Part shown: positions 5,422 to 41,196 of the stretch, in pieces
How the letters are laid out: each line of letters starts with the position of its first letter
How positions within the stretch are numbered: position 1 is the stretch's first letter
From: Lachnoclostridium sp. An118
GTDB taxonomy: Bacteria; Bacillota; Clostridia; Lachnospirales; Lachnospiraceae
DNA length: 64,000 nucleotides
Assembly (NCBI RefSeq): GCF_002160985.1
Contig: NZ_NFLQ01000007.1
Coordinates: forward strand, 1 to 64,000
Direction: 5' to 3'
The notes under the pieces: model-generated
The model's database searches: none
The model's input: the letters and a program-made list of their open reading frames with translations, nothing else
Told to the model about the DNA's origin: nothing
Translations under genes and position numbers: made by a program

Positions 5422-5430
5422 GTGATTAGA

Positions 5431-12059: not shown

Positions 12060-13235
12060 ATGGGAGAAGAAAAGGCCAAGATCTATTTTGACAATGGGAG
12101 CACTTCCTGGCCCAAGGCGCCGGGAGTGGCGGAGGCGGTGGGGCGCCTCCTCACAGAGGGAGCCTTCAATATCAACCGGGGAAACTATGAGGAAGCTTAC
12201 GAGGTGGAAGCGGCGGTGCTGGACACAAGGGAACAGCTGGCACGGCTGTTCCATGCTCCGGACTCCCGGAGAGTCATCTTCACACCGGGTATCACCCACT
12301 CCCTGAACTATTTTATCCGGGGCTTTTTAAAGCGGGGAGACCATGTGCTGGTCACCGGGATGGAGCACAACGCGGTCATGCGCCCTCTGCGGTGTATGGA
12401 GAAGGAGGGAGTTACCTGGGAGTGCATCCCGACGGACAGAGCGGGAAATGTGCGCTCCGCTGACGTGGAGGGGATGATCCGGAAGAACACAAGGGCGGTC
12501 ATTGTCCTCCATGCATCGAATGTATGCGGCACCATTGTCCCGGTGGAGGACATTGGGAGGATCTGCCGGGAGAGGGGTGTGTTCTTTGTGGTGGATACGG
12601 CCCAGAGCGCGGGAACCATCCCCCTGGATATGGAAGAGGCCTGCGTGGATTTCCTGGCTTTTACAGGTCACAAGGGGCTACTGGGTCCCCAGGGAGTGGG
12701 AGGATTTCTCATCTCCGACAGCCTGGATGAGCAGATGGAGCCCCTCATCGCAGGCGGCACGGGCAGCATCTCCGACAGTCTGGACATGCCCCGCACTCTG
12801 CCTGACAAGTATGAGAGCGGAACCATGAACCTGCCAGGCATCATCGGACTGCATGCTGCTCTGTCCTATTTAGAGAAGACAGGGGTGGAGGCGATCCGCA
12901 GGAGGAAGCTGGAGCTGACCGGCTATTTCCTGGAGGAGGTAAAGAAAATCCCCGGTGTCCGCATTGCGGGAAGACAGGGGACGGAAGGGAGAGTAGCTGT
13001 GGTGTCCCTGGATCTTGAGGGCAGGGACAATGCGGTGGCCGCCTTCCGGCTGGAGCAGGAGTACGGTATCATGACCCGGGTGGGCCTCCACTGCGCGCCC
13101 ATGGCTCACAGGACTCTGGGCACATTTCCTCAGGGGACGGTGCGGTTTGCCTTCAGCGCCTCCAACACGGAGGAAGAGATAGACCGCTGTATCCGCGCTC
13201 TTCGCGGCATGCTGATAGAAAAAAACTATATATAA
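12060..13235 (+). CDS. class-V aminotransferase / cysteine desulfurase family protein
   Basis: 391 residues. PLP-dependent enzyme of the NifS/CsdB superfamily: Lys205 in FTGHKGLLGPQG should hold the cofactor, Asp179 in VVDTAQSAG contacts the pyridine ring, and Cys345 in GLHCAP is the residue that would accept sulfur or selenium. It resembles the TIGR01977-type subfamily, which is often found near selenium-linked genes. Likely reaction: removal of S from cysteine or Se from selenocysteine. No IscU or SufU scaffold is adjacent, so Fe-S assembly is not its obvious role. The neighbouring double-cubane and DUF3343 genes point to a supply role for that locus (inference). Confidence 0.88.
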   Translation: MGEEKAKIYFDNGSTSWPKAPGVAEAVGRLLTEGAFNINRGNYEEAYEVEAAVLDTREQLARLFHAPDSRRVIFTPGITHSLNYFIRGFLKRGDHVLVTGMEHNAVMRPLRCMEKEGVTWECIPTDRAGNVRSADVEGMIRKNTRAVIVLHASNVCGTIVPVEDIGRICRERGVFFVVDTAQSAGTIPLDMEEACVDFLAFTGHKGLLGPQGVGGFLISDSLDEQMEPLIAGGTGSISDSLDMPRTLPDKYESGTMNLPGIIGLHAALSYLEKTGVEAIRRRKLELTGYFLEEVKKIPGVRIAGRQGTEGRVAVVSLDLEGRDNAVAAFRLEQEYGIMTRVGLHCAPMAHRTLGTFPQGTVRFAFSASNTEEEIDRCIRALRGMLIEKNYI

Positions 13236-13261
13236 AAAGATACATTATAAAAATCAATAGC

Positions 13262-13354
13262 AAACCTCGCTCTTGCGATTGTCCGGAAATTCTAAACGTG
13301 TTACGGTTATAAAAGGACAATTCTGAAAATATTCAGATACGCAAGAGGAGGTTT
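13262..13354 (+). promoter_or_regulatory. structured leader RNA pairing the ribosome binding site of the first double-cubane gene
   Basis: Three nested perfect stems make a compact three-way junction. P1 pairs 13262-13277 with 13340-13354 (15 bp with one bulged G at 13269) and its 3' strand contains the Shine-Dalgarno AGGAGG (13346-13351). P2 pairs ATTGTCC (13278-13284) with GGACAAT (13315-13321). P3 is TCTGAA-AATA-TTCAGA (13322-13337). Only two bases (13338-13339) are unpaired at the junction. A T-run (13352-13358) follows P1, so it might also terminate. A -10-like TATAAA at 13246-13251 would start the RNA near P1. It resembles no riboswitch class I can name. Ligand or protein partner unknown. 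Confidence 0.6.
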
Positions 13355-13358
13355 TTTT

Positions 13359-14633
13359 ATGGCAGATTACAGAAAAATGTGGGAAGAACTCGGTATGGAT
13401 GTTGAGACGCACGACCAGCTCTGCGAGGTGCTGCCCCAGGCCTTTGGGGACGTCTATCTCTCCCAGGAGAACAGGCCGGAGTCCATGGATTACTATAATT
13501 TTGTGGTGGCGGAGATCCATGGCGTGCGCCCGGCGGAGCTCATCGAGCACCAGAAAAAGGGTGGAAAGGTCTTTGGTACCTTCTGCGTGTATGTGCCGGA
13601 TGAGATCGTGTTTGCGGCGGATGCCATCGCCACGGGCCTGTGCGGCGGCTCCCAGTTCTGGGTGCCGGGAGGCGAGAAGGTCCTTCCCACCAACACCTGT
13701 CCCCTCATCAAGGCGTCTGTGGGCGCCAGGCTGGACCGGACCTGCCCCTTCTTCCGCATTGCGGATATGTACGTGGGCGAGACGACCTGCGACGGCAAGA
13801 AAAAAGCATGGGAGATCCTGGCAGAGGATGTACCGGTACATGTCATGGACCTGCCCCAGATGAAGAGAGAGAAGGATGTCTGTTCCTGGGCGGATGAGAT
13901 CCGTACCTTCAAAAAAGTGGTGGAGGACTTCACAGGAAATGAGATCACTGCGGAGAAACTGGCAGCCAGCATCCATATGATCAACAACAAGAGAAAGGCA
14001 CTGGAGAGACTCTACGCATTCAGAAAGAACGACAAACTGCCCATCAGCGGAAAGGACGTTCTCCTTATCTCCCAGATTGCCTTCTACGACGATCCCACGA
14101 GATTTACGGAGATGACAAACAAGCTCTGTGACGAGCTGGAGCAGAGAGTGGCAGACGGCGTCAGTGTCTTCCCGGAGGGAACAAAGAGGATCATGCTTAC
14201 CGGCACACCGCTGGCCATCCCCAACTGGAAGATCCACAACCTGGTGGAGACAAGCGGCGGCGCTGTAGTCTGTGAGGAGATGTGCACAGGAACCCGGTAC
14301 TTTGAGCGTCTGGTGGATGAGACAAAGACGACCGTGGACGAGCAGATCGATGCCCTGGCGGAGAGATATATGGGCATCAACTGCGCATGCTTTACACCGA
14401 ACCACGGCAGGATCGACGATATCATCCGTCTGGCCAGGGAGTACAAGGTGGACGGCGTCATTGACGTGAACCTGAAGTTCTGCAGCCTCTACGATGTGGA
14501 GGGTTACACGGTGGAGAGAGAGCTCCAGAAGGCAGGTATCCCTGTCCTTGGCATAGAGACAGACTATGTGGACAGTGACGCACAGCAGCTCCGCACAAGG
14601 ATCAGCGCTTTTATTGAGATGCTGGGGGCATAG
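13359..14633 (+). CDS. double-cubane-cluster protein (2-hydroxyacyl-CoA dehydratase subunit family), copy A
   Basis: 424 residues, larger than copy B by about 40, mostly at the N-terminus. The family shares the HgdB/BcrC fold. The double-cubane member from Carboxydothermus holds an [8Fe-9S] cluster and reduces small molecules at very low potential with ATP. Candidate ligands are the repeated cysteines: FGTFCVY, TNTCPLIKASVG, RTCPFF, ETTCDGKKK, CEEMC, NCACFTPN and KFCSLYDVEGY. TTCDGKKK and the SLYDVEGY block are shared with copy B. The 5' leader pairs its AGGAGG. It begins an operon with DUF3343, the activator and copy B. Physiological substrate unknown; the real dehydratase subunits normally come as HgdA/HgdB pairs with acyl-CoA genes, absent here. 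Confidence 0.85.
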   Translation: MADYRKMWEELGMDVETHDQLCEVLPQAFGDVYLSQENRPESMDYYNFVVAEIHGVRPAELIEHQKKGGKVFGTFCVYVPDEIVFAADAIATGLCGGSQFWVPGGEKVLPTNTCPLIKASVGARLDRTCPFFRIADMYVGETTCDGKKKAWEILAEDVPVHVMDLPQMKREKDVCSWADEIRTFKKVVEDFTGNEITAEKLAASIHMINNKRKALERLYAFRKNDKLPISGKDVLLISQIAFYDDPTRFTEMTNKLCDELEQRVADGVSVFPEGTKRIMLTGTPLAIPNWKIHNLVETSGGAVVCEEMCTGTRYFERLVDETKTTVDEQIDALAERYMGINCACFTPNHGRIDDIIRLAREYKVDGVIDVNLKFCSLYDVEGYTVERELQKAGIPVLGIETDYVDSDAQQLRTRISAFIEMLGA

Positions 14634-14636
14634 GAT

Positions 14637-14897
14637 ATGAAAGAGGTACAGCACTATGTGCTTTTTCCCAACCATGACAATGGGATGAGGCTCTATAAGA
14701 AGCTGAAAGAAGAGGGGGTAGGCGCGGTCATTGCGCCTACCCCCAGAAGCGCCAGCAAATGCTGTGGGATTTCCCTCCTTGTGAGGGAGGAGGACCTGGA
14801 CAGGGTCCGCCGGTGCGTGGAGGAGGACCGGATTGAGATCCTGGATATCGCGGCGGTGGAGAGGGATGTGGACCCGGGCAGGGACCGGTACTGCTGA
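14637..14897 (+). CDS. DUF3343 putative Se/S carrier protein
   Basis: 86 residues, one small ferredoxin-like domain. The motif SASKCCGISLL, with a Cys-Cys-Gly, is the hallmark of this family (Pfam name: putative Se/S carrier protein-like), and comparative genomics has linked it to selenium-dependent molybdenum hydroxylases. It starts 4 bp after copy A stops and precedes the activator, so it is made with the double-cubane proteins. A reasonable guess is that it receives sulfane sulfur or selenium from the desulfurase or a rhodanese and hands it on. That step is inference; no biochemistry is known to me. Confidence 0.8.
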   Translation: MKEVQHYVLFPNHDNGMRLYKKLKEEGVGAVIAPTPRSASKCCGISLLVREEDLDRVRRCVEEDRIEILDIAAVERDVDPGRDRYC

Positions 14898-14941
14898 CCG
14901 GCCGGCACTGCGCGAAAAAAGACGGAAAGGATAACAGAAGC

Positions 14942-15718
14942 ATGGATTACATAGGCATTGATATAGGCTCCACAGCTGCCAAGGTGGTGGCAAGGGGAGA
15001 CCATGAGATGGCTTTCACACTCCCAACAGGGTGGAGCAGCAAGGAGACGGCCCGGGTCATCCGGGAACGGCTTGGCCGGGAAGGCGTTGACGTATCGGGA
15101 GAGACGACGAAAGTGGTGGCTACAGGCTACGGGCGCATCGCAGTGGAGTACGCCGACTACGTCATCACGGAGATCACCTGCCACGCAAGAGGAGGCCGGG
15201 AGATGGGAAGCGGTGACTGTGCGGTCATAGACGTGGGAGGACAGGATACCAAGGTCATCCTGCTGAAAGGAGGAATGGTACAGGACTTCCTCATGAACGA
15301 CAAGTGCTCTGCAGGAACGGGAAAGTTCCTGGAGATCATGGCAAACCGGCTCGGGGTGGACCTTCAGGAGCTCTTTGACATGGCGGAGGGCGGTGAGACC
15401 CTGTCTATCAGCTCCCTGTGTACCGTGTTTGCGGAGTCCGAGGTCATCAACTATATCGGAGAGGGCCGGAAGCGGGAGGACATCGCCGCCGGAGTGGTGG
15501 ATTCTGTGGCGGCCAAGGTGGCTCAGCTGGCCATGAGAAAGGATCTGCCCGACCAGATCATCCTGACAGGCGGGCTCTCGGACAGCCGGTACTTCACAAA
15601 AATCCTGTCCGAAAAGATAGGAAAGACCGTGTCCCCCACAGAAAAGGGAAGATACGCAGGAGCCCTGGGAGCGGCCCTGCTGGCTGAAGAGAAGACAAAG
15701 AGACGGAAGGAGAAATAA
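14942..15718 (+). CDS. ATP-dependent activator / double-cubane-cluster protein reductase (BadF/BcrA type)
   Basis: 258 residues of the ASKHA ATPase fold. The phosphate-1 motif is GIDIGSTAAKVV near the N-terminus and the phosphate-2 motif is VIDVGGQDTKVI at about residue 94. Cys122 (NDKCSAGTGKF) and Cys160 (SSLCTVFAESEV) match the two cysteines that hold one 4Fe-4S cluster between two subunits in HgdC-type archerases. It couples ATP hydrolysis to injection of low-potential electrons. It lies between DUF3343 and copy B and ends 1 bp before copy B starts, so its partner is probably one or both double-cubane proteins. Confidence 0.92.
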   Translation: MDYIGIDIGSTAAKVVARGDHEMAFTLPTGWSSKETARVIRERLGREGVDVSGETTKVVATGYGRIAVEYADYVITEITCHARGGREMGSGDCAVIDVGGQDTKVILLKGGMVQDFLMNDKCSAGTGKFLEIMANRLGVDLQELFDMAEGGETLSISSLCTVFAESEVINYIGEGRKREDIAAGVVDSVAAKVAQLAMRKDLPDQIILTGGLSDSRYFTKILSEKIGKTVSPTEKGRYAGALGAALLAEEKTKRRKEK

Positions 15719-15719
15719 A

Positions 15720-16871
15720 ATGGAACTGATCAGGGATTTGCCAGAGGTATTTGAAGAATTTGCAGAGCAGAGGAAGAATTCCTTCCTCGGGGTGAAAAAG
15801 CTGAAGGAGCAGGGCGTGCCCATCGTGGGGGCTTACTGCACCTACTTCCCCCAGGAGATCGCCATGGCCATGGGAGCAGCCACAGTGGGACTTTGCTCCA
15901 CATCTGACGAGACTATACCGGACGCGGAGAGGGACCTGCCCAAGAATCTCTGTCCTCTTATCAAGTCCAGCTATGGATTTGCCAAGACAGAGAAATGTCC
16001 CTTCTTCTATTTCTCTGACGTGGTGGTGGGAGAGACTACCTGTGACGGGAAAAAGAAGATGTATGAGTATATGTCCAGATTTAAGGACGTGTTTATCATG
16101 GAGCTCCCCAACACCCAGAGGCCGGAGGCACTGCAGCTGTGGAAGGGAGAGATCATCCGTTTTAAAGAGTATCTGGAGGAAAAGTTCGATGTGACCATCA
16201 CGGAGGAGGACATCCGGGAGGCTATCCGGGTCAACAATGCGGGCAGAAGGTCCCTGAAGCAGCTCTACGAAGTCATGCTGAACGATCCGGTGCCCATCAC
16301 AGGACATGACCTATTCAAGGTCCTGTACGGGAGCACCTTCAAATTTGACAGAAAGGCCATCCCGGAAGAGGTGGACGCTCTTGTGGAGAAGATCAAAAAG
16401 GAGTATGCGGAAGGAAAGATGCTGGAGAAAAAGCCCCGCATCCTGATTACCGGCTGTCCCGTGGGTGGAGCCACAGAAAAGGTCATCGACGCGGTGGAGA
16501 ACAACGGAGGCGTGGTGGTCACCTTTGAGAACTGCAGCGGAGCCAAATCCATCGACAAGCTGGTGGACGAGGAGGAGCCGGATGTATACGAGGCTCTGGC
16601 GAGGAGGTATCTGAATATCGGATGCTCCGTCATGACACCCAACCCCAACAGGCTGGAGCTACTGGGCCGCCTCATTGACGAGTACAAGGTGGACGGCGTG
16701 GTGGAGATGACCCTCCAGGCCTGCCACACCTACAATGTAGAGTCCTTTGATATCCGCAGGTTTGTCAACGAGGAGAAGGGCATTCCCTACATCAACGTGG
16801 AGACCGACTATTCCCAGGCGGATATCGGGCAGCTGAACACCCGCATCGCCGCCTTCATAGAGATGCTGTGA
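15720..16871 (+). CDS. double-cubane-cluster protein, copy B
   Basis: 383 residues, closest in layout to the characterised double-cubane-cluster protein. Conserved cysteines: GAYCTYFPQE, KNLCPLIKSSYG, KCPFF, ETTCDGKKK, FENCSGAKS, NIGCSVMTPN and QACHTYNVES. It shares ETTCDGKKK, the C-terminal EYKVDGV block and the ETDY segment with copy A but is clearly diverged elsewhere. The two copies may form a heterodimer, or two homodimers served by one activator. It is the last gene of the four-gene operon; its stop is 4 bp before the inverted repeats that precede the rhodanese gene. Confidence 0.87.
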   Translation: MELIRDLPEVFEEFAEQRKNSFLGVKKLKEQGVPIVGAYCTYFPQEIAMAMGAATVGLCSTSDETIPDAERDLPKNLCPLIKSSYGFAKTEKCPFFYFSDVVVGETTCDGKKKMYEYMSRFKDVFIMELPNTQRPEALQLWKGEIIRFKEYLEEKFDVTITEEDIREAIRVNNAGRRSLKQLYEVMLNDPVPITGHDLFKVLYGSTFKFDRKAIPEEVDALVEKIKKEYAEGKMLEKKPRILITGCPVGGATEKVIDAVENNGGVVVTFENCSGAKSIDKLVDEEEPDVYEALARRYLNIGCSVMTPNPNRLELLGRLIDEYKVDGVVEMTLQACHTYNVESFDIRRFVNEEKGIPYINVETDYSQADIGQLNTRIAAFIEML

Positions 16872-16875
16872 TGCA

Positions 16876-16899
16876 TATAGACAGCGTCTATAAATAGAC
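16876..16899. promoter_or_regulatory. TATAGAC-type operator upstream of rhodanese lipoprotein 1
   Basis: TATAGAC (16876-16882), GTCTATA (16886-16892) and ATAGAC (16894-16899) form two overlapping perfect inverted repeats. The block ends 20 bp before the -35 box of the next promoter, the place expected for an activator. A related block lies at a like distance before the second rhodanese gene (25250-25291). Confidence 0.5.
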
Positions 16900-16919
16900 C
16901 TATATATACTTCTTATCGA

Positions 16920-16949
16920 TTGGACGGGCCCTGGACGAATGGATATAAT
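16920..16949 (+). promoter_or_regulatory. sigma-A promoter for rhodanese lipoprotein 1
   Basis: TTGGAC (16920-16925) and TATAAT (16944-16949), spacer 18 bp. The AGGAGG at 16975-16980 then sets the ATG at 16991. The promoter is internal to the locus and separates the double-cubane operon from the rhodanese gene. Confidence 0.65.
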
Positions 16950-16990
16950 AAGGGAGGACATACTACAGTCATAAGGAGGTATATTGTATT

Positions 16991-18100
16991 ATGAAGAAGA
17001 GAGTGTTAGCGGCACTTTTATGTATGGCCATGACAACAGCTATGCTGGCAGGATGCGGCCAGGAGTCGTCCACGGAGGAGGACACTGCTCAGGAGTCCTC
17101 AGACGAGACAACCGACGAGGCGGCAGAGGATGTGGAGGCAGAGCCGGTGGAGACAAGGACCGTGTATGTGACACCCCAGTGGGTGCAGAGTGCGCTGAAC
17201 GGTGACCAGGAGGGATACGAAGATATCCTGATCGCGGAGGTAGGCTACGGCGACGTGGCGGACTGCGTGTCCTACAATGAGGGACATGTCCCGGGCGCCA
17301 TCTATGTAGATAACTGTGAGGTGGAAGACGCCACAGGAAGCGAGGAGGGTGCATACAACCTGCTGGCAGCGGACGAAGTAGTTTCAAATATGCTGGACCA
17401 TGGTATCACAAAGGATACAAAGGTGGTCCTCTACGGAGCGGACGTCAGCGGTACGGCCAGACAGGCATTTGCCTATCTGTGGGCAGGCGTTGAGGATGTA
17501 AAGATCATCAACGGCGGCATTGACGCATGGACAGAGGCAGGATATGATACAGAGACAGATGTAAACGAAGGTGAGGCGGCAGATGACTTCGGCGTAGAAG
17601 CTCCCGCACATCCGGAGTACCGTCTGGACATTGCGGACGCAAAGGCGAAGCTGGAGAGTGGCGATGAGAACTTTAAGCTGGTCAGCATCCGCAGCGAGGA
17701 AGAGTGGCTTGGAGAGACAAGCGGATACAACTACATTGACAGAGCAGGCGAGCCGGAGGGCGCCGTTTGGGGCAAGGGCTCAGACTCCTCTACAGATGTG
17801 GACCAGTTCCTCAACGATGACGGGACAGTGAAGGACCTGGCAGGCTTTGAGGAGGTGTGGGCAGACTGTGACTTCACACTGGACAACGAGCTTTCCTTCT
17901 ACTGCGGCACAGGCTGGAGAGCAAGTGTTCCCTTCCTTGTCCTTTACGAGAATGGCTACGACAGCATTTCCGTATATGACGGTGGATGGTATGAGTGGCA
18001 GATGCATGACGATTATCCGGTACAGGTAGGCGACCCTGCCAGTGATGACTGTGAGCACACGACAGTAGGCGAGCTGCCGACAGATAAAGCTGCTGAGTAA
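16991..18100 (+). CDS. exported rhodanese (sulfurtransferase) lipoprotein 1
   Basis: 369 residues. Signal peptide of type II with lipobox LAGC, so Cys22 should be lipidated and the protein held outside the membrane. An acidic linker (about 23-55) leads to two rhodanese domains. The first (about 60-190) has LYGADVSGTARQ where the loop cysteine should be and is probably inactive. The second (about 205-350) has Cys305 in the loop CGTGWRAS. This tandem layout matches thiosulfate sulfurtransferases such as YnjE. It would pass sulfane sulfur outside the cell. It has its own promoter and is followed by a strong terminator, so it is transcribed more than the genes after it. Confidence 0.88.
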   Translation: MKKRVLAALLCMAMTTAMLAGCGQESSTEEDTAQESSDETTDEAAEDVEAEPVETRTVYVTPQWVQSALNGDQEGYEDILIAEVGYGDVADCVSYNEGHVPGAIYVDNCEVEDATGSEEGAYNLLAADEVVSNMLDHGITKDTKVVLYGADVSGTARQAFAYLWAGVEDVKIINGGIDAWTEAGYDTETDVNEGEAADDFGVEAPAHPEYRLDIADAKAKLESGDENFKLVSIRSEEEWLGETSGYNYIDRAGEPEGAVWGKGSDSSTDVDQFLNDDGTVKDLAGFEEVWADCDFTLDNELSFYCGTGWRASVPFLVLYENGYDSISVYDGGWYEWQMHDDYPVQVGDPASDDCEHTTVGELPTDKAAE

Positions 18101-18142
18101 AAAGCTGCCGAATCATAATCTGCCGAATGATGAGCAGGATGT

Positions 18143-18180
18143 AAAAAGCGCTGCCGTTTAACCTGACGGCAGCGCTTTTT
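18143..18180 (+). terminator. terminator after rhodanese lipoprotein 1
   Basis: A perfect 15-bp stem: AAAAAGCGCTGCCGT (18143-18157) pairs with 18166-18180, loop 8 nt, ending in TTTTT. The A-run on the left makes it work on both strands. No promoter is obvious between it and the next gene at 18219, so read-through may supply the downstream genes. Confidence 0.9.
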
Positions 18181-18218
18181 CTCTCGGAAAAACATCGTGA
18201 CAAAAGCTGGAGGAGACA

Positions 18219-18653
18219 ATGAAAAAGATAGCATATATCCTGGCGCTGGCCCTGGAGATCGCGGCCTTTGCCGGCGCCTGGATCATACATTATTTTGCGA
18301 GACGAAAGCTGGGGATGGTCAGATACCTGAACTACAAAAACATGTCCTGGGAGAGGGATTACCCTGTGGATGCGCTGAAGGCGGCGTGCGTGGCAGCGGC
18401 TGTGGTACTGACTGTCCTTGTGCTTCTTCTTTTCGTGAAAAAGAGGAAGGAGGCATCCAGGCTGACAGCTGCCATGAACGTATGCATGGTAATGCTGACA
18501 GCGCTGTACGCGGGATATACCCTGGGGTGCTCTGCGGAGGTTATGTCAGATTACTATTTTATCAGTATTCTCTTTCTCCTGGCAGCAGCGGTCCAGCTCC
18601 TCAAGACCGGGATTGCTGTGCTGATGTCCGGGAGAAAGAATGAGGGAACGTAA
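18219..18653 (+). CDS. small integral membrane protein of unknown function
   Basis: 144 residues that I do not recognise. Hydrophobic segments are visible at about 5-25, 52-72, 85-103 and 112-132, so probably four membrane spans, with a hydrophilic loop at about 28-48 rich in Lys, Tyr and Trp. ATG 18219 follows GGAGGAG. The end overlaps the start of the TVP38-family gene by 14 bp, so the two are coupled and it may be a partner of that transporter-like protein. Confidence 0.7.
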   Translation: MKKIAYILALALEIAAFAGAWIIHYFARRKLGMVRYLNYKNMSWERDYPVDALKAACVAAAVVLTVLVLLLFVKKRKEASRLTAAMNVCMVMLTALYAGYTLGCSAEVMSDYYFISILFLLAAAVQLLKTGIAVLMSGRKNEGT

Positions 18654-19338
18654 AGTGAAGAACAAAAAGCTCTGGATCTTTGCCGGCCTCATACTGCTGG
18701 TCCTGATCCTCGATCATGTGTTCAGATGGTCCGACTATCTGGGGGATACGGACAACCTGGCTTTTCTGAAAAATATGATACGGGATAATCTGGCAGGGGC
18801 CATTGCCATCTACATGGCGGTGACAGTTATAGGGAGTGTCGTCCTGGCCCTCCCTGGTGTCACCTTTGCCATACTGGCGGGACTCTTGTTCGGACCGGTG
18901 CTGGGCACGGTGCTGTGCGCCGTGGCCGCCACAGCCGGGGCGGTGCTGGCATTCCTGGCAGGGAGATTTTTCCTGCGGGACAGCATAAGGCCGGCGGCCA
19001 TGAAGAACAGATACCTGAAAAAGTGGCTCTTTGACGAGTCCGGGAAGAACCAGATATTTGTCCTCATGGTCACCAGGCTTGTGCCAGTCTTCCCCTACAA
19101 TCTCCAGAATTTTGCCTACGGCGTGACGGACATTGGCTTTGGCACCTACACGGTGGGATCCTTTGTGTTCATGATCCCCGGGACGGCCATGTACACGGTC
19201 GGCACGGCGGGGCTTGCGGATGCAGAAAACAGGATGCTGTACATAGGGGTTGCCCTGGCCATAGCGGTGGTGGTTGTTTTTGCCGGGATCATTTTAAAGA
19301 AAAAGTATATACAGGAGGAGCCGGATGAATCAGAATAA
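18640..19338 (+). CDS. TVP38/TMEM64 (DedA-like) membrane protein 1
   Basis: 232 residues with about six membrane segments. The family core is seen at about 75-175: VVLALPGVTFAILAGLLFGP, then FLAGRF, and FVLMVTRLVPVFPYNLQNFAYG, the last matching the conserved helix-loop motif of the SNARE-associated/VTT domain. Members move lipids or small molecules by a mechanism still debated. In E. coli two such proteins, YdjX and YdjZ, share an operon with a peroxidase-like protein and the rhodanese YnjE. Here too two copies flank an Fe-S protein and precede an AhpD-like gene. Confidence 0.9.
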   Translation: MRERKVKNKKLWIFAGLILLVLILDHVFRWSDYLGDTDNLAFLKNMIRDNLAGAIAIYMAVTVIGSVVLALPGVTFAILAGLLFGPVLGTVLCAVAATAGAVLAFLAGRFFLRDSIRPAAMKNRYLKKWLFDESGKNQIFVLMVTRLVPVFPYNLQNFAYGVTDIGFGTYTVGSFVFMIPGTAMYTVGTAGLADAENRMLYIGVALAIAVVVVFAGIILKKKYIQEEPDESE

Positions 19339-20314
19339 GAAGACAGCGGATCCATCTGCCTGCGTGCATTGCCATCTGTGTCAGAAAAGCTGCGTCTTTC
19401 TTGGAAAATACGGGATTGATATCGGTGACACGGAAAGGCTGCGGGAGCTGGCCATGCACTGCTTTCTCTGCGGAAAATGTACCCGGGTCTGCCCCAGGGG
19501 GATTGACGGCCGGGACGCGATCCTTGAGATGCGCCGGCAGGCGGCAGAGGAGAATAAGGGCAGGCCAAAGGAGAAGGGCTATGGCATGCTGCTCTGGGAA
19601 AAGAGGGACTACTGCTTTCGGAATTACAAAAACGCGGAGGGAAAAAGCGTGCTCTTTCCCGGCTGCAACTTCCCCTCCTTCTACCCGGAGACCACCAGGT
19701 ACCTGGCCAGGCTGCTGCGTGAGAGAGCCGGCATGGGCACGGTCTTCGACTGCTGTGGGAAGCCGGTGGCCGAGCTGGGCATGCAGGCCGGGGAAGCGCG
19801 TATCCTGGCGGGAATAGATAAGCGTCTGGAGCAGGCAGGCGTGGAGGAGGTGGTCATGCTCTGCCCCAACTGCTACCATTTTCTTAAGGGGCGTCTGCGG
19901 GCCAAGGTGACGGATATCTACAGCAAGCTGCAGGAGCTGGGGCTGGGACAGAGGGTCCCCGGACATCTCAAGGTCTTTCCCCCCTGCCCGGACCGGAGGG
20001 ACAAAGAGCTCCTGGGGAAGATACGCCCCTTCCTGGAGGAAGAACCCTTGGTGGAGGAGGATGTGCAGTGCTGCGGCCTCGGGGGATGCGCCAGTGTGAG
20101 AGAACCCCGTCTCGCGGCGGAACTGACAGAGCCTCTGGACAGAGAGGAGGCCGTCTGCACCTACTGTGCCTCCTGCAGCGGCGCGTTCACGAGAAAGGGA
20201 TACAGGGCAGAGCATCTGCTCCTGAAGATACTGGGAAGGGAGGAGACGCCGGACACAAAGCGGTCCCTTCTCAACAGAGCAAGGTCAGCATATTGGAGGG
20301 AGAAAAAGAGATGA
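19325..20314 (+). CDS. (Fe-S)-binding oxidoreductase subunit, HdrD/GlpC-like
   Basis: 329 residues. The N-terminus has two 4Fe-4S ferredoxin motifs (CVHCHLCQKSC and CFLCGKCTRVC). The rest has CCG-type cysteine motifs: CCGKP, CPNCYHF, CCGLGGC and CTYCASCSG, as in the subunits of heterodisulfide reductase and glycerol-3-phosphate dehydrogenase that handle disulfides or quinones. It is cytoplasmic, with no membrane span, and overlaps its neighbours at both ends (14 bp before, 4 bp after). It most likely moves electrons for the membrane proteins on either side or for the radical SAM step. Partner unknown. Confidence 0.88.
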   Translation: MNQNKKTADPSACVHCHLCQKSCVFLGKYGIDIGDTERLRELAMHCFLCGKCTRVCPRGIDGRDAILEMRRQAAEENKGRPKEKGYGMLLWEKRDYCFRNYKNAEGKSVLFPGCNFPSFYPETTRYLARLLRERAGMGTVFDCCGKPVAELGMQAGEARILAGIDKRLEQAGVEEVVMLCPNCYHFLKGRLRAKVTDIYSKLQELGLGQRVPGHLKVFPPCPDRRDKELLGKIRPFLEEEPLVEEDVQCCGLGGCASVREPRLAAELTEPLDREEAVCTYCASCSGAFTRKGYRAEHLLLKILGREETPDTKRSLLNRARSAYWREKKR

Positions 20315-21018
20315 AACAGAAAAACTGGATAAAAAAGGTGATCATCCTTGTGGTCATCCTTGCGGGTGTGGCGGTCTACTTTCTTGTGCCGCCTGTGAAG
20401 AGCAGTATGAACCGGGTGTTTGGCATGTTCGCCAGCGGCGATTTTGACGTGGTCAGAGACTTCGTGGCATCCTACGGGGGCTGGGCGGCTCTGGTGTCCT
20501 TTATGCTCATGATCTTTCAGTCTGTGGCGGCTCCGCTGCCTGCCTTCCTGCTGACCCTGGCCAACGCCAATCTGTTTGGCTGGTGGCAGGGCGCCATCCT
20601 CTCCTGGAGCAGCGCTATGGCTGGGGCAGCGGTGTGCTTCTTCATTGCCAGGATCCTGGGCCGTGATGTGGCGGAGAGGCTGACCAGCAAGGCAGGGATT
20701 GTCCAGATAGACACATTTTTTGAGAAGTACGGGAGGAACACCATCCTGATCTGCCGCCTTCTTCCCTTTGTGTCGTTCGACATCGTGAGCTATGCGGCGG
20801 GACTTACATCCATGTCCTTTAAATCCTTTTTTATCGCCACTGGAATCGGACAGCTGCCAGCTACCCTTGTGTACTCCTACGTGGGAGGTATGCTGACGGG
20901 AGGCGCCCAGCTCCTGATGACGGGACTTTTGATCCTGTTTGCACTGTCGGCGCTGGTCGTGATGTTGCGAAAGATATATATGGACAGACAGAAAAGACAA
21001 AAAGGAGGAAATGAGTAA
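20311..21018 (+). CDS. TVP38/TMEM64 (DedA-like) membrane protein 2
   Basis: 235 residues from ATG 20311, chosen because GGAGGG at 20295-20300 precedes it; an upstream in-frame extension runs through the previous gene and is rejected. It has about five or six membrane segments with the VTT-domain motif ILICRLLPFVSFDIVSYAAG and an N-terminal span near residues 8-25. It differs from copy 1 over most of its length. It overlaps the Fe-S gene at the start and the AhpD-like gene at the stop, so all are translated together. Confidence 0.9.
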   Translation: MKQKNWIKKVIILVVILAGVAVYFLVPPVKSSMNRVFGMFASGDFDVVRDFVASYGGWAALVSFMLMIFQSVAAPLPAFLLTLANANLFGWWQGAILSWSSAMAGAAVCFFIARILGRDVAERLTSKAGIVQIDTFFEKYGRNTILICRLLPFVSFDIVSYAAGLTSMSFKSFFIATGIGQLPATLVYSYVGGMLTGGAQLLMTGLLILFALSALVVMLRKIYMDRQKRQKGGNE

Positions 21019-21350
21019 TGGAAACCTATTACAACCCGGAGGATCTTGCGAAATTTGGCACTATTGGAGAGGAGGCCCCCCAGCTGGCGGAGAAATTCTT
21101 TGACTACTACGGCGCTGTGTTTGCGGAGGGAGCCCTGACAGCCAGGGAGAAATCCCTTATCGCCCTGGCGGTGGCCCATGCGGTGCAGTGTCCCTACTGC
21201 ATCGACTCCTACACCAACGATTGCCTGAATAAGGGAGTCAGCGAGGAGCAGATGACAGAGGCCGTCCACGTGGCGGCGGCGATCCGCGGCGGAGCCACGC
21301 TGGTACACGGCGTGCAGATGAAAAATATCGTGAAGAAGCTGGAGTTATAA
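21018..21350 (+). CDS. AhpD/carboxymuconolactone decarboxylase-like peroxidase-type protein
   Basis: 110 residues, all one CMD domain. The redox-active pair is in CPYCIDSYTND, with the conserved His in VHVAAAIRGGATLVHG. This subgroup is the one placed next to ArsS genes and called arsenosugar-associated peroxidase-like; E. coli YnjA is similar. It may reduce a peroxide or a disulfide, or act as a thiol relay to the radical SAM enzyme. The ATG overlaps the stop of the TVP38 gene (TAATG) and the ArsS-family gene starts 4 bp after its stop. Confidence 0.88.
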   Translation: METYYNPEDLAKFGTIGEEAPQLAEKFFDYYGAVFAEGALTAREKSLIALAVAHAVQCPYCIDSYTNDCLNKGVSEEQMTEAVHVAAAIRGGATLVHGVQMKNIVKKLEL

Positions 21351-21354
21351 GAGT

Positions 21355-22341
21355 ATGAGTCAGGCGCTGGAAGATTTAAGAGAACTGAAGAGCATCCCGG
21401 ATTTTGAGGACAGAGTTGCCGGGGAGGAGTATAAGTACACGACAGATAAGCTGGAGGTCGTGCAGATCAATGTGGGAAAAGTGTGTAACCTGGCCTGCAG
21501 GCACTGCCATGTGGAGGCGGGCCCTGCAAGGACAGAAGTCATGGACCGGAAGGCGATGGAGGCCTGTCTTGCAGTGTGCAGGGAACAGAAGGTGGCGACC
21601 ATCGATATCACCGGGGGAGCGCCGGAGATGAACCCGGATTTCGAGTGGCTTGTGGAGGAAGCCTGCAAAATATGCGGGCACGTCATCGTCCGCACTAACC
21701 TGGTCATCCTGCAGGAGGAAAAGTACAGGCATCTGCCGGAGTTTTACGCGGACCACAGGGTGGAGGTAGTCTGCTCCCTTCCCTACTACAGGGCCAAGGA
21801 GATGAACCGGGTCAGGGGAGAGGGTACCTTTGAGATGGCTATTGAGGTGATACGCAGGCTCAATGAGCTGGGCTACGGCAAAGAGAAGGACCTGGTACTG
21901 AACATGGTGTACAATCCTGCCGGGGCCTTTTTCCCGCCGGTGCAGGAGGCCATGGAAAAGGAGTACAAGGCAAAGCTGTGGAAGGACTACGGCATAGTGT
22001 TCAACCATCTTTTCACTATCACCAACAATCCCATGGGGCGCTTTGAGGCCTTTTTAAAGAGGAGCGGCAACCTGGAGAGCTATATGAAGAAGCTCTCAGA
22101 TGCGTTCAACGATGCCACGCTGGCCGGCCTCATGTGCCGGTTCCAGATTTCCGTGGGCTACGACGGCCAGGTCTACGACTGTGACTTTAACCAGGCGGCG
22201 GACTTGCCGGTAGCGACAGGGGAGACCATCTTTGACATGGTGGGAAAGCCCTATAAGAAAAGGAAAATCTGCATGGCAAACCACTGCTACGGCTGCACAG
22301 CCGGGCAGGGCTCCAGCTGTGGCGGGGCCACAGAGCAGTAA
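21355..22341 (+). CDS. arsS: ArsS-family radical SAM protein
   Basis: 328 residues. The radical SAM cluster motif is CNLACRHC (Cys44, Cys48, Cys51), followed by HVEAGPARTE, a signature of ArsS. The C-terminal cysteine domain keeps YDCDFNQ and ends with Cys306, Cys311, Cys314 and Cys322 in CYGCTAGQGSSCGG. Some members have selenocysteine; here all are Cys. In characterised systems ArsS attaches a 5'-deoxyadenosyl group to dimethylarsenite made by ArsM. No ArsM is in this window, so the acceptor here may be another sulfur, selenium or metalloid species. Flanked by the AhpD-like and C_GCAxxG_C_C genes. Confidence 0.9.
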   Translation: MSQALEDLRELKSIPDFEDRVAGEEYKYTTDKLEVVQINVGKVCNLACRHCHVEAGPARTEVMDRKAMEACLAVCREQKVATIDITGGAPEMNPDFEWLVEEACKICGHVIVRTNLVILQEEKYRHLPEFYADHRVEVVCSLPYYRAKEMNRVRGEGTFEMAIEVIRRLNELGYGKEKDLVLNMVYNPAGAFFPPVQEAMEKEYKAKLWKDYGIVFNHLFTITNNPMGRFEAFLKRSGNLESYMKKLSDAFNDATLAGLMCRFQISVGYDGQVYDCDFNQAADLPVATGETIFDMVGKPYKKRKICMANHCYGCTAGQGSSCGGATEQ

Positions 22342-22350
22342 GGAGGAAAA

Positions 22351-22779
22351 ATGACAAAAGAGGAGATCAAAAATCTTTTTATGCAGGGCATCGACTGCTC
22401 CCAGGTGGTGACAGGAGCCTTTGCGGAAAAAATGGGCATGACGCAGGAGCAGGCAAGGAAGGTGTCCTCCTGCTTCGGGGGAGGCATGATGTGCGGGGAG
22501 ACCTGCGGGGCGGTGACCGGTGCCCTCATGGTCATCGGCATGGTGTACGGCCACAGCCGGGAGGGAGACCAGTCCCAGAAGGAAATCATGGCGGCGAAGA
22601 CAGGGGAATTTAAAAAGCTCTTTGGAGAGAAATATTCCTCCTGCATCTGCCGGGAGCTTCTGGGACACGATATATCAAAGCCGGGAGAGATGGAGAAGGT
22701 CCTGGAAAAAGGACTCATGTTTGACTTCTGTCCCCGGGTGGTAGAGGACACGATAGACATACTGGAGAAGATTTTATAG
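22351..22779 (+). CDS. C_GCAxxG_C_C family redox protein
   Basis: 142 residues. Members have regularly spaced cysteines and the CGAVTGA core: here GIDCSQVV (Cys16), SSCFGGGMMCGETCGAVTGA (about 47-64), SSCICRELLG (about 99-103) and FCP near the C-terminus. They probably bind a metal or Fe-S cluster, but no reaction is proven. It starts 9 bp after the ArsS-family stop with AGGAGG ahead of the ATG, so it is part of the same message. A role as electron or sulfur carrier for the locus is a guess. Confidence 0.87.
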   Translation: MTKEEIKNLFMQGIDCSQVVTGAFAEKMGMTQEQARKVSSCFGGGMMCGETCGAVTGALMVIGMVYGHSREGDQSQKEIMAAKTGEFKKLFGEKYSSCICRELLGHDISKPGEMEKVLEKGLMFDFCPRVVEDTIDILEKIL

Positions 22780-22781
22780 AC

Positions 22782-24113
22782 ATGAAAAGGGCAGTGATCA
22801 TACTTACAAGAGTTCCCCGGCCGGGGCAGACAAAAACGCGGATGATGCCCCACCTGACAGGGGAACAGTGCGCCCGGCTCCACACCTGTTTCTTAAAGGA
22901 TATAGCCGGACAGTGCCGGGACTGTGAGGCGGACATCTTTGTCAGCTACACCCCCGGGGAGGGGAGAGAAGAGCTGGAACAGGTCCTGGGCCCGGCGGAG
23001 GGCTGGTTCCCCCAGGAGGGGGACAGCCTGGGAGAGCGGATGTACAGAGCCATAGCACAGGCCTTGGGCCGGGGCTGTGGCTCCTGCCTTCTCATAGGGA
23101 CAGATGTGCCGGAGCTTAAAAGAGAAAGCCTGGAGAAGGCGTTTGAGGTCCTGGAGGAGAAGGATGCGGTCTTTGGCAGGACGGTGGACGGTGGATACTA
23201 TCTGGTGGGCATGAAGCGCCCCCTTCGGGAGGCATTTTCCCTGGACTCCTACGGACATGCAAACGTGCTGGAGGAGACCCTGGAAGAGATGAGGAGGGCC
23301 GGCCTTGCGGTGGGCTTTACAGATACTCTGGAGGACATGGACACGCCGGCAGACCTGCGGGGGTACAGGCGGCGGATGACAGAGGATCATGCCCTGAAGA
23401 AAAGCTTTACAGGGAGATATCTGGCAAGGAACAGCCGGATTTCCGTCATCGTCCCCATCTACAACGAGATCCGCACCATCGAGCAGCTGCAGAGACAGCT
23501 GCGGCCTCTCCTTGGCCGGTGCGAGATACTCCTCGTGGACGGAGGGAGCACGGACGGCACCCTGGAGAAGATAGACCCAGCGTTCCGGGTCATCCGCTCC
23601 CCCAAGGGGCGGGCCTTTCAGATGAACGAGGGGGCCAGGCGAAGCAGCGGGGATATCCTCTTTTTTCTCCACTGCGACAGCCAGCTGCCGGACCGCCCGC
23701 TGGAGAGGATACGGAGAGTCATGCGGGATCACCGCGCGGGGTGCTTTGGCATAGCCTTCCACTCAAAAAACTTTTTCATGTTCACCTGCCGGGTGATATC
23801 CAACCACCGGGTAAAGGACAGGAAGGTCATGTTCGGAGACCAGGGCATTTTTGTGGACAGAGACCTCTTCTTTGAGGCCGGCATGTTCCCGGAAATCCCC
23901 ATTATGGAGGATTACCAGTTTTCTCTCACACTGAAGGAGATGGGGATAAAGCTGGGCATGGCGGACAGGCGCATCTACACCTCAGACAGGAGATTCCCGA
24001 AGGGAACCATCCCCAAGCTTAAGCTCATGTGGAAGATGAACCGTCTGAGAAAACTGTATCGGGACGGGATGGACACAGAGGACCTTGCCCGGATGTACCG
24101 GGATGTGAGGTAG
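22782..24113 (+). CDS. fused CofC-like/DUF2064 and GT2 glycosyltransferase
   Basis: 443 residues holding two enzymes that are usually separate in ArsS loci (TIGR04282 and TIGR04283 types). The N-terminal half (about 1-205) is a CofC-like nucleotidyltransferase fold with TRVPRPGQTKTRM and LIGTDVPELKRESLEKA. The C-terminal half (about 220-440) is a GT-A glycosyltransferase: ISVIVPIYNE, ILLVDGGSTDGT, and a DxD-type site in FLHCDSQLPD. The two would activate and transfer a sugar unit. It begins 2 bp after the previous stop. The fusion itself shows that the two steps act on one pathway. Confidence 0.88.
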   Translation: MKRAVIILTRVPRPGQTKTRMMPHLTGEQCARLHTCFLKDIAGQCRDCEADIFVSYTPGEGREELEQVLGPAEGWFPQEGDSLGERMYRAIAQALGRGCGSCLLIGTDVPELKRESLEKAFEVLEEKDAVFGRTVDGGYYLVGMKRPLREAFSLDSYGHANVLEETLEEMRRAGLAVGFTDTLEDMDTPADLRGYRRRMTEDHALKKSFTGRYLARNSRISVIVPIYNEIRTIEQLQRQLRPLLGRCEILLVDGGSTDGTLEKIDPAFRVIRSPKGRAFQMNEGARRSSGDILFFLHCDSQLPDRPLERIRRVMRDHRAGCFGIAFHSKNFFMFTCRVISNHRVKDRKVMFGDQGIFVDRDLFFEAGMFPEIPIMEDYQFSLTLKEMGIKLGMADRRIYTSDRRFPKGTIPKLKLMWKMNRLRKLYRDGMDTEDLARMYRDVR

Positions 24114-24160
24114 GGGTCTGGAGCCCCCCAAAAGGATCAAAGGACAAAGGAGGAGAAGGC

Positions 24161-25234
24161 ATGAGAGCGGACAGACAAAAAAATATGCCAGGGACAGTGG
24201 ATCTGGACCGGACAAAGGGGCTGCAGGCCTATGTGGAGTCGGAGGACTACCGGAGAGCTCTTGGCCTGCCCGCAGCCAGAGAGGAGGAGTATCGTCTCCT
24301 GGCCCAGGGGGAGTACAACAGGAACTATCTGTTTACTCATCCGGTGACGGGGAAAAGGCTGGTGCTCCGGCTTAACTTTGGCAGTCAGATGCATCTGGAG
24401 CATCAGATCGAGTATGAGTACGAGGCTCTAAGGCTGCTGGAGGGCTCCGGCAGGACGCCTCGTCCCCTCTATGTGGACGGCAGCAGGGATGTCCTGCCAT
24501 ACGGGGTCATGGTCATGGAGTATCTGCCGGGGCATGCCCTGGACTATGAGGCAGAGCTCTTCAGGGCGGCAGACTGCCTGGCGGACATCCACAGCGTTCC
24601 GGTGCCATCGGGCCATCATCTGATCCGTCCGGAAAATCCGGTGCGGGCCATTCTGGAGGAGTGTGAGGAGATGGTCCGCACCTATATGGACAGCCCGCTG
24701 GGGGAGCCGGCTAAAAAGAAGAAGATACGGGAGCTCCTCGACCTGGTGTGGCGGGAGGCGGACAGCTTAAGTCCCGCGGAGTATCTCTGCTGCATCAACA
24801 CGGAGCTGAACTCTACAAACTTCCTCATGAACAGCGGGGATGAAAGCGGAGATGAGGGCGGGGACGGGACAGACTATCTCATTGACTGGGAGAAGCCGCT
24901 TTTCGGGGAGCCGGCCCAGGACCTGGGACACTTCCTGGCTCCTACCACCACCTTCTGGAAGACCAATGTGATCCTGGATGAGGGGGAAATGCAGGCCTTC
25001 ACAGAGAGGTACAAGGAGGCGGTGAAGGGCAGATTCAGAACGGACGGGCTGTGGGAGAGGGTGAGCGTCTACATGACGGTCACCTGCCTGAGGGGGATCA
25101 CCTGGTGCGCCATGGCCTGGGTGGAATACCAGCAGCCGGAGCGTGAGCTGGTGAACGAGTCCACCTGGCGGAAGCTGGAGGCATACCTGGACGACAGTTT
25201 TCTTGAGATGATCAGAAGGTTTATCGAGAGATGA
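24161..25234 (+). CDS. aminoglycoside/choline kinase-like phosphotransferase
   Basis: 357 residues from ATG 24161, which follows AAAGGAGGAGAAGG; the in-frame extension to 24029 lies inside the upstream gene and is rejected. Kinase fold of the APH/choline kinase group. The catalytic loop reads CINTELNSTNFLMN, with Asn in place of the usual His and Glu in place of Asp, and the metal-binding motif is LIDWEKPLFG. The GxxN loop near the N-terminus (GEYNRNYLF) is normal. The Glu substitution may lower or change activity. Such kinases accompany glycosyltransferases in ArsS-type loci and probably phosphorylate a sugar or nucleoside. Confidence 0.83.
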   Translation: MRADRQKNMPGTVDLDRTKGLQAYVESEDYRRALGLPAAREEEYRLLAQGEYNRNYLFTHPVTGKRLVLRLNFGSQMHLEHQIEYEYEALRLLEGSGRTPRPLYVDGSRDVLPYGVMVMEYLPGHALDYEAELFRAADCLADIHSVPVPSGHHLIRPENPVRAILEECEEMVRTYMDSPLGEPAKKKKIRELLDLVWREADSLSPAEYLCCINTELNSTNFLMNSGDESGDEGGDGTDYLIDWEKPLFGEPAQDLGHFLAPTTTFWKTNVILDEGEMQAFTERYKEAVKGRFRTDGLWERVSVYMTVTCLRGITWCAMAWVEYQQPERELVNESTWRKLEAYLDDSFLEMIRRFIER

Positions 25235-25249
25235 GAGTCAGAAAACGTT

Positions 25250-25291
25250 TATAGAAGGTATCTATATGGAATATTGTATAAATCTATAGAC
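25250..25291. promoter_or_regulatory. TATAGAC-type operator upstream of rhodanese lipoprotein 2
   Basis: TATAGA (25250-25255) and TCTATA (25261-25266) make an inverted repeat. TCTATAGAC (25283-25291) follows and ends 16 bp before the -35 box. The half-sites and the distance match the block at 16876-16899 before the first rhodanese gene. Confidence 0.48.
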
Positions 25292-25307
25292 AATTCTGAC
25301 AATTCAC

Positions 25308-25336
25308 TTGAACGGCCAAAAAATACCTTTTATAAT
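25308..25336 (+). promoter_or_regulatory. sigma-A promoter for rhodanese lipoprotein 2
   Basis: TTGAAC (25308-25313) and TATAAT (25331-25336) with a 17-bp spacer, a near-consensus promoter. The ribosome binding site AAGGAGG at 25355-25361 precedes ATG 25372. Confidence 0.8.
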
Positions 25337-25371
25337 TGATATACATGATAAGACAAGGAGGATAAGGTATC

Positions 25372-26238
25372 ATGAAAAAAAGAATAGCAGCAGTCCTGAT
25401 GGCAGCAGCTATGGCAGCGACTATGGTTACAGCCTGCGGCTCCGGCGAGACAGAGGAGACAGGCACAGAGACAACGGAGAGCACAGACTCCGGCTCAGAC
25501 AGTGAGAGCACAGACGGCGACTATCAGTTTGTTTCTCCCGCGGATGCGGTGAAGGCGGCTCAGGCAGGCGGCACCCACGTGCTGGATGTCCGTGAGTGGT
25601 CCAACTATGTGAGCGGAAGAGTGGTAAACTCTGAGTGGTGCCCCATCTTCCCGCTGGAGGATGACTCTCTCGTTGAGACAATGACCACCTATGCGGAAGA
25701 GAACTTCGGCGATGACGAGGACATCTATATCATCTGCAACAGCGGGCAGAAGGGCGCTCAGAAAGCCACAGGCGTTCTTGAGGATGCGGGGATCGACGCT
25801 TCCCGCATCTACACAGTAGAGGGCGGAGCAAAGGCCCTCGCCGAGGAGGACGGAGCTCTCACCACAAACCGCACAGAGGAGAGTATTGACTGGCAGTATG
25901 TATCAGGCGCTGAGGCTGTGGAAGCTGTGGGAAATGAGGATATCCAGATCCTGGACGTGAGGGATGATGACACATATGCACAGGGACATCTGGAGGGCTC
26001 CCTGCAGTGCGATCTGAAGGATGTGGAGAGTGCGGATGCACAGACAGCCCTCTATGAGCTGGCCACCTCAGAGATGGATGCAGAGAAGCCGGTTTACCTT
26101 CTGTGCTACAGCGGAAACAACTGTGCCAAGACAGGTATCTCTGTGCTGAAGGACGCAGGATTTGACGTGTCGGGCCTGTACATTATCGAAAACGGAGCAA
26201 AGGATGCTGACGTGGCAGCAGCCTTTGTGACAGACTGA
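25372..26238 (+). CDS. exported tandem rhodanese lipoprotein 2
   Basis: 288 residues. Type II signal peptide with lipobox VTAC (Cys22), then an acidic Thr/Ser linker to about residue 50. Two rhodanese domains follow, and unlike lipoprotein 1 both keep the loop cysteine: Cys122 in CNSGQKG and Cys245 in CYSGNNC, with a second Cys at 251 that could form a disulfide. Both also have the LDVR entry motif. It would transfer sulfane sulfur on the outer face of the membrane. It has its own promoter and terminator and closes the locus. It is not a recent duplicate of lipoprotein 1. Confidence 0.9.
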   Translation: MKKRIAAVLMAAAMAATMVTACGSGETEETGTETTESTDSGSDSESTDGDYQFVSPADAVKAAQAGGTHVLDVREWSNYVSGRVVNSEWCPIFPLEDDSLVETMTTYAEENFGDDEDIYIICNSGQKGAQKATGVLEDAGIDASRIYTVEGGAKALAEEDGALTTNRTEESIDWQYVSGAEAVEAVGNEDIQILDVRDDDTYAQGHLEGSLQCDLKDVESADAQTALYELATSEMDAEKPVYLLCYSGNNCAKTGISVLKDAGFDVSGLYIIENGAKDADVAAAFVTD

Positions 26239-26260: not shown

Positions 26261-26295
26261 GAGGGGCTGCCTTGAGGCGGCCCCTCAGTCTTTTT
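26261..26295 (+). terminator. terminator after rhodanese lipoprotein 2
   Basis: GAGGGGCTGCC (26261-26271) pairs with GGCGGCCCCTC (26276-26286) with one G-T pair and a TTGA loop, followed by a T-run to 26295. It ends the 12-26 kb locus just before the convergent AraC gene. Confidence 0.9.
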
Positions 26296-27155: not shown

Positions 27156-27328
27156 CTGTATCATCCTCCTTTTTCTGTTGCAGAATAGAATAGCAGAAAA
27201 AACAGAATAAATCAATATTGACTTAAAATATGTCAAAAAGATATCTGTTTCTTACCGGAAAAGAGCAGTATGATAATACACGTAAAGAGGAAACAACATC
27301 AATAACAGTTGAAAGGAGTGTATGACTT

Positions 27329-36078: not shown

Positions 36079-36140
36079 CTCAGATACAGGGCGGGATGCC
36101 TCTGGCGCCGCCGGTATACTATATAAAGGAGAGAAAAAGA

Positions 36141-41151: not shown

Positions 41152-41196
41152 AAAACGGAATAAAAAGCTATGTCTGAACAAAGGAGGAGAGTTTTT

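Follow-up and report, generated by a model that had tools for sequence, protein, structure and literature searches.

Putative anaerobic variant of the ArsS pathway beside a selenium-linked double-cubane module in Lachnoclostridium sp. An118

The window analyzed here is the first 64 kb (64,000 nucleotides) of a contig, NZ_NFLQ01000007.1 (C55 in our numbering), from the 3.47-Mb draft genome of Lachnoclostridium sp. An118. At 12060-26238 it contains a block of genes in two halves: half 1 carries double-cubane-cluster (DCC) proteins, half 2 carries ArsS, a radical SAM (S-adenosylmethionine) protein. Cheng is reported to have studied the biochemistry of ArsS in 2021.

The closest described systems are the arsenosugar biosynthesis set of NCBIfam, the ydjXYZ-ynjABCDE region of Escherichia coli and a selenium module of Slackia. 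In the parts of PMC12159101 considered here, a radical SAM enzyme performs the adenosylation of arsenic in oxo-arsenosugar biosynthesis. The E. coli region contains, according to its annotation, YdjX, YdjZ, YdjY, YnjE and the AhpD-like YnjA; YnjE is annotated as a molybdopterin synthase sulfurtransferase. The portions of PMC3688515 used here list ydjXYZ-ynjABCD among the FNR-regulated operons and have FNR directly activating ynjE. Section 7 of PMC10127716 gives phospholipid scrambling as a possibility for DedA proteins of the COG0398 type; on our reading of the methods and text of that paper, YdjX and YdjZ would be proteins of this type. Table 1 of PMC5322559 links a selenocysteine (Sec) lyase, DUF3343, an activase, a 2-hydroxyglutaryl-CoA dehydratase subunit and YedF of Slackia to selenium by genome context, and a provisional selenium link of a dicubane cluster protein, found in methyl-selenium clusters, is given in the passages of PMC10418091 consulted.

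The window shares with the NCBIfam set ArsS, the AhpD-like partner and both glycosyltransferase-like domains. On the other hand, ArsM is found neither at the locus nor in the genome (two profiles), the transferase domains are fused, and a pair of VTT proteins, an Fe-S protein with a CCG domain, a C_GCAxxG protein and exported rhodaneses are added. Homologues of YdjX, YdjZ, YdjY and YnjE are present, as in E. coli, whose region has no annotated ArsS or glycosyltransferase; the YdjY of the window lies 15 kb away from the ArsS block. Half 1 contains the families of the Slackia module, also clustered, but lacks YedF and a second DUF3343.

We propose that half 2 may encode the ArsS pathway in a variant form suited to anaerobes, fed from outside, which would produce an organometalloid nucleoside or sugar and would be coupled to a YdjXYZ-YnjE sulfur module of the membrane, and that it lies beside a separate half 1. 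We give this reading as a whole a probability of about 0.46.

The ArsS block and its membrane partners

All genes of the block are on the + strand. Family calls are based on NCBIfam profiles at curated cut-offs and a Pfam domain scan of the window proteins; their scores back the genes and families listed in a preliminary description of this DNA, to which we have added one gene (MEM144) and corrected two starts (TVP38b at 20311, KIN at 24161). No in-frame TGA was found in the genes of the window, and a search of the window against Rfam with gathering thresholds gave zero matches. Among named relatives, Eubacterium sp. ER2, placed in the Eubacteriaceae by the NCBI lineage, is the nearest; its ArsS is 89% identical.

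Half 2 starts with RHO1 (16991-18100), a predicted exported rhodanese with two rhodanese stretches in Pfam. It is followed, after 118 bp, by MEM144 (18219-18653), a 144 amino acid membrane protein with no family above cut-off, which has homologues in two other ArsS loci (L038 and L040). Two VTT proteins, TVP38a (18640-19338, PF09335) and TVP38b (20311-21018, VTT domain in Pfam), flank FES (19325-20314), an Fe-S protein with a 4Fe-4S dicluster region (Fer4_9 27.1 bits, Fer4_10 26.1 bits) and a CCG domain (PF02754, 40.9 bits). Then come an AhpD-like CxxC protein (21018-21350; TIGR04169, 204.7 bits, cut-off 120), ArsS (21355-22341; TIGR04167, 446.8 bits, cut-off 300), a C_GCAxxG_C_C redox protein (22351-22779; PF09719, 107.3 bits; NCBIfam, 67.8 bits) and COFC_GT2 (22782-24113). 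The latter is a fusion of a DUF2064/TIGR04282 domain (193.1 bits) with a TIGR04283 family-2 glycosyltransferase (228.1 bits), and its solved relative is 3cgx, a putative nucleotide-diphospho-sugar transferase (E 6e-29). All three partners of ArsS in the arsenosugar set (TIGR04169, TIGR04282 and TIGR04283) are thus present, each above its cut-off. From MEM144 to COFC_GT2, neighbouring genes overlap or are at most 9 bp apart.

After a gap of 47 bp we find KIN (24161-25234; PF01636, 68.4 bits), an accessory small-molecule kinase of APH fold. Its structure model has a pLDDT of 77.1, and the top fold matches are APH(9)-Ia, homoserine kinase and choline/ethanolamine kinases. Methylthioribose kinase ranks under the APH(9), homoserine and choline kinases among its fold matches and has not been assigned. 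RHO2 (25372-26238), 137 bp after KIN, is a second predicted exported rhodanese with two rhodanese stretches in Pfam, preceded by a promoter-like site (25308-25336) and followed by a strong terminator-like stem (26261-26286). The lipoprotein or export call of both rhodaneses comes from N-termini judged by eye.

To compare this arrangement with others we have collected 86 ArsS loci (84 distinct, as two records are duplicated) and 12 later ones, which makes 96 besides the window. Cysteines 44, 48, 51, 311, 314 and 322 of ArsS are invariant in the window and six relatives, one of which has Sec at 322. The window protein is the Cys form (GSSC). In 8 of 84 loci position 322 carries Sec; no other Sec position was found inside the cluster. 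A quick midpoint-rooted tree of 65 ArsS proteins places the window in a group of 21 rows (SH-aLRT 99), made of records from Lachnospiraceae, Synergistota, Coriobacteriia and Tissierellia.

The partners of ArsS have been tallied by best hit in 32 anaerobe-type loci which we chose ourselves, window excluded, some of them from one genus. The AhpD-like protein is found in 26, GT2 in 23, TVP38b in 20, COFC in 16, FES and C_GCAxxG in 12 each, TVP38a in 11, RHO1-like and YdjY in 8 each, RHO2-like in 5 and KIN in 4; the fused COFC-GT2 is counted once, and a few low-scoring GT2 matches are other glycosyltransferases. In the set of 84 loci, matches to TVP38, Fe-S, rhodanese, kinase and C_GCAxxG proteins are confined to the anaerobic groups, as judged by record title. 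Among the matches listed in the open-access literature, there is no paper in which ArsS is combined with VTT proteins, with rhodaneses or with double-cubane proteins. We have also seen rhodanese domains within very long proteins by ArsS (L034:14593-17115, L035:10521-13349 and L043:12258-17174). One long rhodanese protein has choline/glucan-binding-type repeats, a hint of rhodanese held at the cell wall.

TVP38b is 54.6% identical to E. coli YdjZ over 229 amino acids, TVP38a 34.6% to YdjX over 228 and RHO1 36.4% to YnjE over 319. YdjY is absent inside the ArsS block: A two-domain exported YdjY protein (41170-42339, + strand; NF040466, 181.7 bits; 39.7% identity to E. coli YdjY over 156 amino acids) is found 15 kb downstream, on the same strand, in another operon. 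It is followed by a small membrane partner (42339-42767, + strand), the only open reading frame of the window which matches the profile of a YdjY-adjacent family from L038, L039, L047, L048 and L060 (E 5.5e-18). A thioredoxin-like gene (40666-40977, recognized by eye) precedes this pair.

Judging by homology, the YdjXYZ-YnjE set is present in the window, split over two places. We interpret half 2, together with the distant YdjY, as a new form of the ArsS pathway that includes membrane and sulfur-handling partners.

The double-cubane module and its separation from ArsS

Half 1 contains CsdL (12060-13235), a cysteine desulfurase/selenocysteine-lyase-like protein (TIGR01977, 443.8 bits, cut-off 377), whose score with the SclA model (387.6 bits) is below the cut-off of 525. 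The other members are DCC1 (13359-14633; NF040772, 513.4 bits), DUF3343, a putative Se/S carrier (14637-14897; PF11823, Se_S_carrier, 70.1 bits), an ATP-dependent activator of the acyl-CoA dehydratase activase family (14942-15718; TIGR00241, 227.4 bits) and DCC2 (15720-16871; NF040772, 544.1 bits). The gap between CsdL and DCC1 is 123 bp; those which follow are 3, 44 and 1 bp.

The host has a Sec operon elsewhere. Contig C56 has the order YedF-SelD(TGA)-SelA-SelB-LysR-TIGR01977-YedE, in which SelA and LysR have been assigned by eye; the TGA-containing SelD is at 4949-5869 (G000:C56). This operon has its own TIGR01977 protein, so the desulfurase of half 1 would be a second paralogue, belonging to the DCC set. 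CsdL orthologues with 590-618 bits sit ahead of DCC1 in four other genomes, and the Sec-operon paralogues give 313-318 bits. TIGR01977, DUF3343, activase and DCC are clustered in a host with SelD. Since these families have been published as selenium-linked, in the parts of PMC5322559 and PMC10418091 mentioned above, half 1 would belong to a type of module that is known, although uncharacterised. By its families it is a putative selenium or sulfur redox module: A Sec-lyase-like desulfurase and a DUF3343 carrier beside an ATP-activated double-cubane reductase.

The two halves are rarely found together. Half 1 genes (DCC1, DCC2, DUF3343 and the activator) adjoin ArsS in only 1 of the 96 other loci, that of Eubacterium sp. 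ER2 (L040), a count which is only a guide as many loci end at contig edges. The order CsdL-DCC1-DUF3343-activator is found away from ArsS in four genomes (G124, G057, G038 and G201); only portions of this set cluster in G202 and G191, and DCC2 is often separated from the other four genes. Of the 15 ArsS genomes tested, all of which have SelD, 14 contain DCC genes at some position; in G165, which has ArsS, no DCC gene was matched at 1e-40. DCC and ArsS are about 91 kb apart in G005, and more than 1.2 Mb apart in the single contig of G191, even if it is circular.

Between the halves there is a gap of 119 bp with a sigma-70-like promoter-like site (16921-16949, + strand; TGGACG-17-TATAAT), conserved in ER2 as judged by eye. 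It probably marks the start of a separate transcription unit at RHO1. A scan for a terminator-like site between the halves found none.

The separation in 95 of 96 loci, the free-standing half 1, the promoter-like site of RHO1 and the terminator-like stem of RHO2 all point to two neighbouring, separately conserved systems rather than one joint pathway. At the level of genomes both halves accompany the selenium trait, a tie which is weaker than a shared pathway. The preliminary description had joined them in a single pathway of sulfur, selenium or metalloid chemistry. At locus level the joint part does not hold by the refuting condition which that description itself named, a lack of co-occurrence in other genomes, given that single case. 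The chemistry suits each half by family, and half 2 stands as a coherent block.

The element handled by the ArsS block

Our proposal for half 2 starts from gene content, order, conservation, homology with YdjXYZ-YnjE and the lack of a recognisable ArsM. No ArsM is found in the source genome with NF008823 (E 1e-30) or with a divergent-ArsM profile of nine rows (1e-20), so methylated arsenic is proposed to be taken from outside. The AhpD-like protein, the C_GCAxxG protein and FES would keep a trivalent methylated metalloid, most likely this external arsenic, in its reduced form. ArsS, acting as its family does, would join the 5'-deoxyadenosyl radical derived from SAM to the metalloid, giving a 5'-deoxy-5'-metalloid adenosine. 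A housekeeping nucleosidase might then strip the adenine and the APH-fold kinase phosphorylate the sugar, which would be activated by the DUF2064 domain and attached to an acceptor by the fused family-2 glycosyltransferase. The VTT pair of YdjX/YdjZ type could carry the product, or a lipid form of it, across the membrane. Outside, the YnjE-type rhodaneses and the YdjY protein would handle sulfane sulfur.

The distribution of SelD and ArsM has been studied in 200 genomes of the family and 398 of the phylum (Bacillota), the source genome being in both samples. In the family sample ArsS is above cut-off in 7 genomes, SelD is found in 67 and ArsM (at 1e-50) in 4, one of these matches falling below the cut-off of the profile. 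All 7 ArsS genomes have SelD (p 4e-4), and all are among the 28 whose SelD carries TGA (p 5e-7). In the phylum sample SelD is found in 12 of 12 ArsS genomes, compared with 260 of 398 overall (p 0.006). The 4 ArsM genomes, taken as a control, also have Sec-type SelD (p 3e-4): The bias may mark Sec users rather than a substrate, and Sec at position 322 of ArsS may explain it in the 8 loci concerned. ArsS is present in 2 of the 4 ArsM genomes (p 0.006). Of the 86 loci scanned, 20 have an ArsM-like gene no more than 10 kb away from ArsS (at least 216 bits in 19 of them; the call in L058 comes from fragments which do not exceed 81 bits).

An anticorrelation between SelD and ArsM in 65 ArsS genomes (p 0.006) weakens to p 0.03 when the ArsM-like neighbours of L051, L052, L059 and L084, overlooked by the profile, are added, and is not significant in a paired test based on the tree (median p 0.25). 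We do not count it as support. ArsM genes with in-frame TGA, possibly selenoprotein forms, have been seen in the SelD-bearing genomes G124 (which also has TAG), G202, G207, G117 and G155; G238 has an ArsM of this kind, yet no SelD match.

Several observations weigh against our proposal. The source of arsenic is assumed, as ArsM is missing at 1e-30 in 5 of the 7 ArsS genomes of the family, including the source genome. Among the 28 genomes whose SelD is of Sec type, ArsS and ArsM overlap at chance level (p 0.25), so their co-occurrence weighs little in favor of arsenic. The ArsS genomes of the Bacillota samples all bear SelD, which leaves room for selenium. KIN, with its 4 loci of 32, is not a core member. 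A good alignment with YnjE is obtained for RHO1 only; neither RHO2 nor the AhpD-like protein aligns with its counterpart in E. coli (the AhpD-like protein gives E 0.024 with YnjA). The tie of COG0398-type DedA proteins to aerobic metabolism, as stated in the section of PMC10127716 cited above, misfits an anaerobic role. Finally, ER2 keeps the halves next to each other, which would allow for a loose tie between them. On balance, arsenic appears to be the more likely element from these comparisons, with selenium as a live rival.

If selenium were the element, ArsS of the anaerobe clade would adenosylate selenide or methylselenol to give a seleno-nucleoside or selenosugar, with reduced selenium supplied by half 1 and the Sec operon. 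The SelD counts, 7 of 7 (all of TGA type) and 12 of 12, and the Sec form of ArsS agree with this. So does gene order: In L044 (700-11446) SelB-YedE-TIGR01977-YedF directly precede TVP38b-TVP38a-FES-AhpD-ArsS(Sec)-C_GCAxxG, YedE precedes TVP38b in L038, and half 1 adjoins ArsS in the window, which gives a selenium linkage in three lineages. Ledgham is said to have reported in 2005, to go by the title, that DedA is probably linked to selenite resistance, which we count on the same side. Nevertheless, the ArsM genomes show the same SelD bias, 19 of 50 ArsS genomes of other groups, outside our samples, have no SelD match, the anticorrelation is not significant on the tree and the count of three lineages was made post hoc. 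We consider this alternative unlikely, though it deserves to be kept in mind. CsdL-like matches in L090 and L153 (139-141 bits) are too weak to be taken as further linkage. Further on, L044 contains an ArsR/CobW-like fusion and a SaoE-like efflux protein.

Sulfur is a less probable candidate, and a rather improbable one: The rhodaneses, YdjY and VTT proteins would move sulfane sulfur, and ArsS and the glycosyltransferase would form a thio-sugar. The two exported rhodaneses, the annotation of YnjE and the fact that E. coli carries the same membrane set without ArsS would fit. Nevertheless, ArsS clearly belongs to TIGR04167, the combination of ArsS, AhpD-like and transferase partners is common to loci carrying ArsM-like genes, and rhodaneses are found in few anaerobe-type loci (the 8 and 5 of 32 given above). 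A joint pathway, in which the double-cubane reductase would make a reduced species to be built into a product by ArsS and the glycosyltransferase, is very improbable: The halves are adjacent on the same strand, also in ER2, and DCC is present in nearly all ArsS genomes tested, but the single joint locus, the free-standing half 1, the promoter-like site and G165 argue against it.

Neighbouring genes and significance

Two genes on the - strand flank the block and may be unrelated to it: a radical SAM protein upstream (10182-11123) and an AraC-type regulator which points toward its end (26316-27236). Elsewhere, the window contains Type I-C CRISPR-cas genes (Cas5c, Cas8c and Cas1c, 142-5421) and an ABC transporter ATPase above the TIGR03740 (lantibiotic protection) cut-off (36096-36860).

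A bolder idea, which we regard as quite unlikely, is that in anaerobes which use Sec this clade of ArsS has switched element: It would convert reduced selenium into a seleno-nucleoside or selenosugar, the YdjXYZ-YnjE sulfur/selenium module of the membrane serving as carrier. If true, this would extend the biological uses of selenium by a new one and would hint that ydjXYZ-ynjE serves the same element in E. coli.

If the variant works with arsenic as we have proposed, strictly anaerobic Lachnospiraceae could do without their own methyltransferase: They would make organometalloid sugars from arsenic which other organisms have methylated, and this would have a bearing on the handling of dietary arsenic by gut communities. 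The E. coli ydjXYZ-ynjE genes would be set beside a pathway of defined chemistry, and their role would become testable.

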